This document shows, one piece after another, positions 1 through 9,393 of a stretch of 35,786 bases of DNA (within the stretch, counting starts at the first letter, position 1; every line of letters begins with the position of its first letter). The notes under the pieces are model-generated. The model made no database searches. It saw only the letters and a program-made list of their open reading frames with translations, and was not told the origin of the DNA. The DNA is from Chlorobium sp. (GTDB lineage Bacteria > Bacteroidota > Chlorobiia > Chlorobiales > Chlorobiaceae). The position numbers were made by a program, and so were the translations under genes. The stretch lies in assembly GCA_005843805.1 (NCBI GenBank), contig SZXY01000142.1, positions 1-35,786 on the forward strand, written 5' to 3'.

Positions 1-905
1 AATGGTTTGTCTAAACTCTTGTTGGTTGGAGCTGTTTCAAGTTGTTCATCAAGCTTTTCCTGTAGCAAACGCATAAAATCGGCAACGTTTCCGGGAGAAG
101 CTGTCGTGATAGAGAGGAGGGCTGATTGAAACTCCGTATACACCACGTCAACTTTTCTGAGCTGATATCGTTCCTGATCTCCATCGACAACAGGCTCAAG
201 ATCGTAAATGAACCAGGCAATATCGGCTTCACTCTTTTTAACTGGCTTCAAAAGAGGAAGTGTTTCGAAAAAACTTCTGTTGATTGCTACCACTGTTTTC
301 TTCTGCCATGAATGCAAAATTCCGCCTTTAAACAACAGTTGCGGGGCAAGCCGTTTCCTCGACGAGGAAAGAAAATCCGGACGTGGATAGTTCGGTTGCG
401 CAGTCCAGTCCATCAGTGCATGTGCACCTGGATCTTTCATGTAGTGCTCAAAAGGTTCTCGGACATTACCTGAAATATAGACAGCCTGAACCTCAAGGGC
501 TCCGAAGTCGATCACTTTGCCGTGTTTGTCATAGGCAACAAGCACCACATCGATATTTCCTGCAGATTTGCCAAAAGCATCATTCAGACGAACTTCTGTC
601 AATGAACTCCAGAGTGCGCCCTCTTCAAAAAAGAATGAAGCCGCATCATCGGTAATAAGCCACTCTTCACGAAAGCGTACCGGGCAAGTGATGACTGGCA
701 TGTTGTTCTGCAAAACAGAGCACACACCGAGAGGATTTTTTGCCTTGTCTTTGGTACAGTTTGGAACCTTGTTGTTGAAAGGGCAAAGCCGATGTGCTCG
801 GTAGCGTTGAGCTTTAGGGGATTGGTCGGTTACCATAAAGCCAAAAACCTCGGCTAACGGATGTGAAAATGTTTTCTTGCTGCAGGTGCCATTTCTTTTT
901 TTCAC
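1..905 (-). CDS. NotI-family type II restriction endonuclease (3' end beyond window)
   Basis: The minus-strand frame is open from position 905 to the left edge (about 301 codons, no stop), so the C-terminus lies outside the window. NotI itself has 383 residues. Counting from a GTG at 905, four cysteines sit at about 41 (RLCPFN), 50 (PNCTKD), 62 (GVCSV) and 74 (ITCPVRF). This matches the Fe-Cys4 metal fold known in NotI. A PD-(D/E)xK-type core follows: Asp119 (GNIDVVL), then Glu138 and Gln140 in GALEVQ, equivalent to the D...E-x-Q catalytic set of NotI. The predicted role is cleavage of a specific, probably GC-rich, DNA site. The start is uncertain. ATG at 836 also fits, but the residues before it (KTFSHPLAEVFGF) resemble the family's N-terminus, so I prefer GTG 905, whose ribosome site is weak. 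A partner methyltransferase is not in view and may lie to the left. The family call is from recognised motifs, not a search. Confidence 0.82.
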   Translation of the reverse strand, partial: MKKRNGTCSKKTFSHPLAEVFGFMVTDQSPKAQRYRAHRLCPFNNKVPNCTKDKAKNPLGVCSVLQNNMPVITCPVRFREEWLITDDAASFFFEEGALWSSLTEVRLNDAFGKSAGNIDVVLVAYDKHGKVIDFGALEVQAVYISGNVREPFEHYMKDPGAHALMDWTAQPNYPRPDFLSSSRKRLAPQLLFKGGILHSWQKKTVVAINRSFFETLPLLKPVKKSEADIAWFIYDLEPVVDGDQERYQLRKVDVVYTEFQSALLSITTASPGNVADFMRLLQEKLDEQLETAPTNKSLDKP

Positions 906-1277: not shown

Positions 1278-2420
1278 TTAGAGGTATTCCTGCAAGATAC
1301 CAGCGACTTTGTTTGAGGGAGAGCTGCAGGCAAGCTTGTCACGTGCGGCAAGCAATTCACGACGCATGGCGGCGGCAAGTTCCGGGTCGTCAAGAATCAT
1401 GCGTGCCTGACGGTATATCTCTGCGCCGTTCGCGTCATGCTGGAGAAGTTCCGGCACTGCCGTTTCAGAGCTGCCAAGCCCTTTGGCGACAATATTGGCG
1501 AGCGATATATTTTTCAGTTTGACCAACTGTTTGCCAATCAGATAGTTCACTCTGCCTGTCCTGTAGAGCACAATCATTGGCAGTCCAAAGCATAGCGTCT
1601 CAAGGGTTGCAGTACCGGAGGTGACCAGTGCAAGCTCACTGTATTGCATGACCTCATAAGCGGAGCAGTTGATAATGGTCAGGTCAGGGTATTGCGCCAG
1701 CGCATGGTATGCCGCTTCGTCAAGGTGCGGAGCACGGCCAATGAGAAAAACAACCTGGTAGTCGCGACTCAGCAAGCGTGAAGCTTTGAGCATGTCGGGC
1801 AGAATGTGGGCAATCTCCTGCTTGCGGCTGCCGGGAAGAAGTCCGACAAGACGGGTTTCAGGCGCAAGCTCGTGCTGCTTTACAAAACTCTCCCGCGATG
1901 GAAGAGAGAGTTCGTCAAGCTGTTCAATAACGGGATGACCGACAAATTCGGCGGTGACACCGTGGCAACGGAAAAAGTCAACTTCAAAATCGAAAATAAC
2001 GAGCAGCCGGTCAACGTCTCGGCGGATCGCTTTTACCCTCCCCTCTTTCCAGGCCCAGACTTGCGGGGAGATATAGAAGATAACCGGAATGCCGAGTTCG
2101 TGACAAAAACGGGCCATGATGAGGTTCATGCCCGGATAATCAATCAGAAAAGCTGCGTCGGGTTTTTCCCTGAGTACAGCCTCCTTGAGATCCCGAAAAA
2201 CCCGACGAAGAAAGAAGAGATGCTTGAGCACATCAACAAAGCCCATGATACTCATCTGCGCGGTGTCATAGAGCAGCTCTGCGCCAAGCGCCTGAAGCTT
2301 CTGACCACCGATACCGAATACCCTGATGTCAGGCTTTGCCTTAAGCAGTTCAGCAATCACTCCGGCAGCGTGCATGTCTCCGGAAACCTCTCCTGCTAAA
2401 ACAAAAAGCTTCTTGGGCAT
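1278..2420 (-). CDS. lpxB: Lipid-A-disaccharide synthase LpxB
   Basis: The enzyme joins UDP-2,3-diacylglucosamine and 2,3-diacylglucosamine 1-phosphate to make the lipid A disaccharide at the cytoplasmic face of the inner membrane. The 380-residue length is usual for the GT19 family. Visible family motifs are AGEVSGDMHAAG at residues 9-20, SPQVWAWKEGRV in the middle, FVGHPVIEQ, LLPGSRKQEI and the C-terminal TSGTATLETLCFGLPMIVLYR nucleotide-sugar region. The ATG at 2420 gives the normal N-terminus directly before the GEVSGD motif. No strong ribosome site is seen before it. It is divergent from the phosphohexomutase gene, with about 118 bases between them holding the two promoters, and it is followed by a small membrane protein gene. 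Confidence 0.96.
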   Translation of the reverse strand: MPKKLFVLAGEVSGDMHAAGVIAELLKAKPDIRVFGIGGQKLQALGAELLYDTAQMSIMGFVDVLKHLFFLRRVFRDLKEAVLREKPDAAFLIDYPGMNLIMARFCHELGIPVIFYISPQVWAWKEGRVKAIRRDVDRLLVIFDFEVDFFRCHGVTAEFVGHPVIEQLDELSLPSRESFVKQHELAPETRLVGLLPGSRKQEIAHILPDMLKASRLLSRDYQVVFLIGRAPHLDEAAYHALAQYPDLTIINCSAYEVMQYSELALVTSGTATLETLCFGLPMIVLYRTGRVNYLIGKQLVKLKNISLANIVAKGLGSSETAVPELLQHDANGAEIYRQARMILDDPELAAAMRRELLAARDKLACSSPSNKVAGILQEYL

Positions 2421-7928: not shown

Positions 7929-8291
7929 TTAAACCGTGTCTTTTTTTACCGTCCCGGAAGCTCCGTTACCATTGGCGGCTTCCCGGCGCTGCCGCAACTC
8001 TTCTTCATCGATCTGGAACCGACCATCCTTCTGAATGACCGGAATCTTTGATATCACATCCCTGAGATGACGCTGGGCCTCCTGTTGCTGCTGTTTGAGT
8101 TTTTCAAGCTCATCACCATACAAGCCGACAGGATTATCCTTGTCGATCAGAGAATCTTTAAATGACTCTATTTGCAGGTTCTGCTCTTTTTTCATATAAC
8201 CCACAAACTTTCTGAGTAAAAAAATAAATAAAAAAAAGACCAGAAGGGAAAAAACCAGAATGATTACCCAGCTCATGGAATCAGAATTCAT
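7929..8291 (-). CDS. Small membrane-anchored coiled-coil protein of unknown function
   Basis: The 120-residue protein has an N-terminal transmembrane helix at about residues 8-27 (WVIILVFSLLVFFLFIFLL) followed by a basic junction (RKFVGYMKK). A predicted coiled-coil, rich in Gln, Glu and Lys, is centred on residues 60-80 (DELEKLKQQQQEAQRHL). The C-terminus is low-complexity. I do not recognise a family. Its gene precedes the flippase on the same strand, suggesting a common transcript and possibly an accessory role in polysaccharide export or envelope organisation; the evidence is positional only. Confidence 0.7.
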   Translation of the reverse strand: MNSDSMSWVIILVFSLLVFFLFIFLLRKFVGYMKKEQNLQIESFKDSLIDKDNPVGLYGDELEKLKQQQQEAQRHLRDVISKIPVIQKDGRFQIDEEELRQRREAANGNGASGTVKKDTV

Positions 8292-8412
8292 ATCGACAGC
8301 TTTATGATTAGCAAAGCAAATAGTAATTATGCAATTTAGCCGATATTCGAGTTTATAAAAACAGGAAGCGGTTATCTTTTCTTCATTAAAGCATCTATTC
8401 TGTCAGGAGACT

Positions 8413-9393
8413 ATGAACCAAGCAGCCCGAAACCGGGAAATTACTACAACCGGAAAAACAATTCTTGAACAGGAAGCACAGGCAATTCAGTCGATAGCGG
8501 AACGGCTTGATGAAAGTTTTTCGGGTGCAGTGGAACTATTGAGATCATGCAAAGGGAAAATCATCATCTCCGGCATGGGCAAATCAGGTATCATCGGCCA
8601 GAAAATTGCGGCCACCATGGCCTCAACTGGTTCAACCGCCTTGTTTCTGCACCCTGCAGATGCGGCTCATGGTGACCTTGGCGTTGTCGGTCATGACGAC
8701 GTTGTTATCTGCCTTTCAAAAAGCGGGACAACGGAAGAGTTAAACTTTATTATACCGGCACTCCGCCAAATCGGGGTATCGATCATTGCAATGACCGGCA
8801 ACAGCCGCTCTTTTCTTGCCCTGAACGCCGACATCACGCTCGATACCGGAATAGAACAGGAGGCTTGCCCTTACGATCTTGCGCCGACCACCTCAACAAC
8901 CGCAATGCTGGCCATGGGAGACGCCCTTGCGATTTGCCTGATGCAAGAGAAGAATTTTACGCAGAGGGATTTTGCTCTCACCCATCCCAAAGGCTCTCTC
9001 GGACGACGGCTGACCCTGAAGGTGTCAGATATCATGGCAAAGGAAAATGCAGTGCCTCTCGTAACCGAACACGCCTCGGTTACCGATCTTATCCTTGAAA
9101 TGACCTCAAAACGATATGGAGTGAGCGCTGTTGTCAATGATGATGGAATACTCTGCGGAATATTTACCGATGGAGACCTGCGCCGTCTGGTTCAGAGCGG
9201 TAACGACTTCATCAACCTCACGGCAGGTTCAGTCATGACAGCAAACCCAAAAACCGTCACGACCAGCACCCTGGCCAAAGAGTGTCTTGATATCCTTGAA
9301 ACCTACCGGATAACCCAACTGCTTGTCTGCGACAGTGAGCAGCATCCGGTTGGACTGGTGCATATTCATGACCTGATCACACTGGGGCTGTAG
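8413..9393 (+). CDS. kdsD: Arabinose-5-phosphate isomerase KdsD (KpsF/GutQ family)
   Basis: The enzyme converts ribulose 5-phosphate to arabinose 5-phosphate, the first step toward Kdo for the LPS inner core. The 326-residue protein has an N-terminal SIS sugar-isomerase domain (about 35-185) with GMGKSGIIGQKIAATMAS (54-71), His80 and His86 in LHPADAAHGDLG, and CLSKSGTTEE. Two CBS domains follow (about 205-326), including VSDIMAKENAVPLV and GIFTDGDLRR. This is the normal SIS-CBS-CBS layout and length. An AGGAG at 8406-8410 lies just before ATG 8413, supporting the start. It is convergent with sucD, and the two are separated by a strong hairpin. Confidence 0.95.
   Translation: MNQAARNREITTTGKTILEQEAQAIQSIAERLDESFSGAVELLRSCKGKIIISGMGKSGIIGQKIAATMASTGSTALFLHPADAAHGDLGVVGHDDVVICLSKSGTTEELNFIIPALRQIGVSIIAMTGNSRSFLALNADITLDTGIEQEACPYDLAPTTSTTAMLAMGDALAICLMQEKNFTQRDFALTHPKGSLGRRLTLKVSDIMAKENAVPLVTEHASVTDLILEMTSKRYGVSAVVNDDGILCGIFTDGDLRRLVQSGNDFINLTAGSVMTANPKTVTTSTLAKECLDILETYRITQLLVCDSEQHPVGLVHIHDLITLGL

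Follow-up and report, generated by a model that had tools for sequence, protein, structure and literature searches.

The closest described enzyme is NotI, in which iron is bound in a Cys4 motif and a glutamine replaces the catalytic lysine (PMC4081073). The crystal structures of NotI (3c25, 3bvq) share the fold, the Cys4 site and the D..ExQ core with the protein encoded at the left end of the window, the 35,786-nucleotide stretch of Chlorobium sp. DNA analysed here. NotI differs in sequence, with about 15% identity, and the site implied by the adenine methyltransferase of the window gene's relatives is unlike that of NotI. The same kind of gene pair is found on the Thermus brockianus plasmid pTbrSNM4-1c, where the two products are annotated as 'NotI family restriction endonuclease' and 'DNA adenine methylase'. 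This pair shares the restriction-modification gene order and its nuclease exhibits 66.7% identity over 99% of the query, the protein of the relative L022, but unlike the window copy it is complete, plasmid-borne and found in a thermophilic host. PD-lambda-5 (PMC9519451) provides the best PADLOC model (PD-Lambda-5_B) for the relatives' methyltransferase, whereas the nuclease has no PD-Lambda-5 match and its only PADLOC match is REase_II. The lpxB-linked restriction-modification pairs of uncultured Chlorobiaceae (L022, L023 and L024) exhibit 91–93% identity, share the chromosomal neighbour and have a complete methyltransferase, and differ from the window copy in using an ATG start where the window reads AAG. 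A literature search on NotI homologues and M.NotI returned nothing useful.

The left contig end holds a nearly complete, ordinary member of the NotI family belonging to a known kind of restriction-modification system (Table 1). The reading frame, counted from the GTG codon, runs on the minus strand to the left edge without encountering a stop, as the earlier note had reported. The genome assembly comprises 208 contigs, and this edge coincides with the first base of contig C13, so the gene is cut short by a contig end. Close relatives terminate in '..SLDKPF-stop' and the window protein in '..SLDKP', so that only one residue and the stop codon are lost, which bears out the view that the gene is truncated by the edge alone. 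Comparison with L022 gave a dN of 0.031 and a dS of 0.647 (ratio 0.05), indicating strong purifying selection on the protein body, and the branch of the window gene is not lengthened in the tree. Chance is excluded as the source of this frame by the ratio of 0.05 together with the Pfam score given below. The upstream neighbour is taken to be lpxB, a name that comes from its sequence and from the earlier note rather than from a domain search.

Table 1. Coordinates of the window gene, its motifs and neighbour, and of the fused NotI-domain genes found at other loci
Feature	Sequence	Position	Strand	Remarks
NotI-family (PF12183) restriction endonuclease	Window	3..905	-	301 residues; contig end removes the last residue and the stop
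Predicted catalytic core D119 .. E138-V-Q140 (PD-(D/E)xQ)	Window	486..551	-	Conservation in relatives
Cys4 metal-site segment C41 to C74 (C-x8-C-x11-C-x11-C)	Window	684..785	-	Conservation in relatives
Site of the ATG start used by L022–L025	Window	876..878	-	AAG in window; alignment
GTG codon	Window	903..905	-	No other common start codon lies in frame ahead of the conserved PLAEVFG motif
lpxB (lipid-A-disaccharide synthase)	Window	1278..2420	-	Upstream neighbour; ORF; adjoins the gene in L022–L024 too
Fused NotI-domain protein	L030	7500-8837	+	Without methyltransferase
Fused NotI-domain protein	L030	9475-10557	-	Without methyltransferase
Fused NotI-domain protein	L037	7482-8840		Without methyltransferase
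Fused NotI-domain protein	L040	7407-8840		Without methyltransferase
Fused NotI-domain protein	L041	7437-8840		Without methyltransferase
Fused NotI-domain protein	L042	7386-8831		Without methyltransferase
Fused NotI-domain protein	L045	7458-8861		Without methyltransferase

The Pfam NotI profile (PF12183) identified the window protein with an E-value of 8.7e-63 and 212.3 bits against a curated cut-off of 22, confirming the proposed family membership. Searches of the PDB by sequence provided no match, whether the query was the single protein or the profile built from 17 relatives, and NCBIfam has no model for the nuclease; NotI was reached by fold only. An AlphaFold model built from 17 homologues (pLDDT 74, pTM 0.73, with low confidence at residues 42–58) was matched by Foldseek to the two NotI structures (E-values 1.2e-9 to 2.3e-8, probability 1.00), the best hit being 3c25_A (E=1.2e-9, TM 0.59). 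The fold therefore agrees with NotI, and the low identity and the failure of the 17-relative profile to find NotI bear out the description of the protein as much diverged from it. The residues named in the earlier note (C41, C50, C62, C74, D119 and E138-V139-Q140) are all exact. The four cysteines and D119 are invariant in the 17 relatives and in a distant set of NotI-family proteins, with E138 and Q140 conserved in at least 90%; plasmid proteins of Achromobacter, Cronobacter and Sedimenticola in the distant set retain the four cysteines, D119 and ExQ.

Relatives were located by a genome scan at 33 loci, which are spread over many phyla and extend to the archaeon Methanothrix; 25 of the loci are informative once seven loci of a fused form (see below) and L054, which ends at a contig edge, are left out. 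A D12-class adenine-N6 methyltransferase (PF02086) with the motifs FRYPGGK, EPFAGGG and DPPYT directly follows the nuclease gene in the same orientation at 22 of these 25, starting within a few bases of its end or overlapping it. The three loci lacking the methyltransferase are L044 and L051, which are truncated, and L049. The L049 nuclease (7998-8825) carries E138C and is apparently decayed or repurposed. Within the genus, every sampled genome with a stand-alone PF12183 gene has the methyltransferase except the window's own; the methyltransferase match in G012 spans two stop codons and that in G006 runs into a contig end. Among the distant plasmid genes, those of Cronobacter and Sedimenticola are linked to cytosine methyltransferases and that of Achromobacter to an adenine methylase, so the type of partner varies between branches of the NotI family. 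At L087 (1734-3906) and L088 (37-2059), plasmid-borne distant NotI-family genes are preceded by a cytosine methyltransferase.

Pairing of the relatives with an adenine methyltransferase marks the window gene as an ordinary phage-defence gene, and horizontal movement of the pair is indicated by its occurrence in different phyla as well as on a plasmid and two viral contigs. The position beside lpxB is common to the window and L022–L024, and the pair lies elsewhere in other relatives, which fits a mobile defence pair, in line with the earlier suggestion of a defence insertion. The suggestion that enzymes of this type are rare does not hold for the genus: PF12183 exceeds the cut-off in 14 of 41 genomes, comprising 12 of 25 in Chlorobium and two of 16 from elsewhere in the order and phylum, where one of the two matches is weak. 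The family is thus common in the genus, and plasmid relatives are already named 'NotI family restriction endonuclease' by NCBI.

Taken from sequence and model, the window gene very probably encodes the restriction endonuclease of a two-gene type II restriction-modification system, its activity being a prediction. The protein is predicted to be a PD-(D/E)xQ nuclease with the NotI fold and a structural Cys4 metal site and, by analogy with NotI, would cut a palindromic site as a dimer. The D12-class adenine-N6 methyltransferase encoded directly downstream in the relatives would protect the same site in the host. Since this partner methylates adenine and GCGGCCGC contains none, the recognition site would have to contain A and T and could not be GCGGCCGC; the adenine-specific partner of the relatives supports the earlier proposal that the site may differ from that of NotI.

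In the window genome the methyltransferase gene would sit just past the contig end. The earlier note proposed extending the sequence leftward to find it; the junction coincides with the contig end, and no methyltransferase was found in the assembly, which is 99.95% complete; a search of the window genome for the sequence lying beyond the methyltransferase in L024 gave nothing convincing. Two methyltransferase matches were discarded: that at C13:5-220 is an out-of-frame reading of the nuclease gene, caused by a query ORF with too early a start, and that on C160 falls below the cut-off. Besides the site of the relatives' ATG, the closest in-frame start codons are the GTG at position 905 and an ATG further downstream whose use would delete the conserved PLAEVFG motif, and no clear ribosome-binding site is seen by eye at the GTG. 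As the ATG of the closest relatives is AAG here, use of the GTG is a derived and uncertain trait; the probable GTG start proposed earlier is available but is not the ancestral one. With no methyltransferase in the assembly and the ATG changed to AAG, the local gene may be silent or weakly translated. A recent silencing of the window copy, in which the start codon and methyltransferase were lost while the protein body still looks intact, is nevertheless unlikely. An assembly gap may account for the missing methyltransferase, whose expected start coincides with the contig end; the frame is intact with a dN/dS of 0.05 on an unlengthened branch, and a GTG start is still available. An assembly gap combined with the alternative GTG start is judged more likely than silencing. 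It is highly improbable that the enzyme is a true isoschizomer of NotI that cuts GCGGCCGC, with the relatives' methyltransferase serving another purpose: it has the fold and Pfam family of NotI, but its D12-class partner is tightly linked and methylates a base that GCGGCCGC lacks, the distant plasmid genes of Cronobacter and Sedimenticola are paired with cytosine methyltransferases instead, and identity to NotI is low.

A second form of the domain occurs outside the window, in fused proteins of 440–545 aa present in 17 of 61 sampled genus genomes. These open with a segment of some 64 residues, which a variable linker joins to the NotI domain. The N-terminal segment exhibits a weak resemblance, below the cut-off, to DUF2383 and four-helix bundles, and a structure model of the fused protein is poor (pLDDT 38) except for an N-terminal helical hairpin. 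Stand-alone proteins of 73–104 aa homologous to this segment are encoded in Chlorobium genomes without the fusion (L074–L081). The NotI domains of L030, L037, L041 and L045 are 67–73% identical to the window protein and keep the Cys4 site; the fused proteins are unlike it in having the N-terminal helical segment, in lacking a methyltransferase and in changes to catalytic or helix residues. Throughout the fused group the four cysteines and D119 are retained and R185 is lost, with Q140H in addition in the holB-linked fusions and K184E or K184Q in the GH8-linked ones. A cognate methyltransferase with a strong E-value is absent from 13 of the 17 fusion-bearing genomes; G006, G019, G023 and G047 have both fusion and methyltransferase, and three of these four are recorded as having a stand-alone nuclease besides the fusion. 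The fusion genes are found repeatedly in two neighbourhoods. One adjoins holB and often contains a convergent pair of copies; in the other the fusion follows a GH8-type gene and, in L037, L041 and L045, lies just upstream of nifH. The GH8 and nifH names at these loci are presumed from sequence recognition rather than domain searches. The fused proteins form a single clade (100/100) nested among the restriction enzymes of Chlorobiaceae (nesting support 90/85), and pairwise dN/dS within the NotI domain of this clade is 0.04 to 0.15, with several dS values saturated, indicating purifying selection.

The gain of an N-terminal helical segment and the loss of the methyltransferase and of conserved active-site or helix residues, with the Cys4 site kept, suggest domestication. 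The simplest reading of the fused clade is a single event in Chlorobium by which an enzyme of the window subfamily became a protein with a putative DNA-binding or metal-sensing function, non-cutting or altered, whose chromosomal locations are fixed and include one just upstream of nifH; the balance for and against this proposal is about even. The NotI-fold enzymes linked to adenine methyltransferases are candidate new specificities, with sites that would contain A and T, and a thermophilic relative is at hand. The fused, methyltransferase-free branch is a clear test case for the passage from restriction enzyme to host protein and is the part that deserves follow-up.
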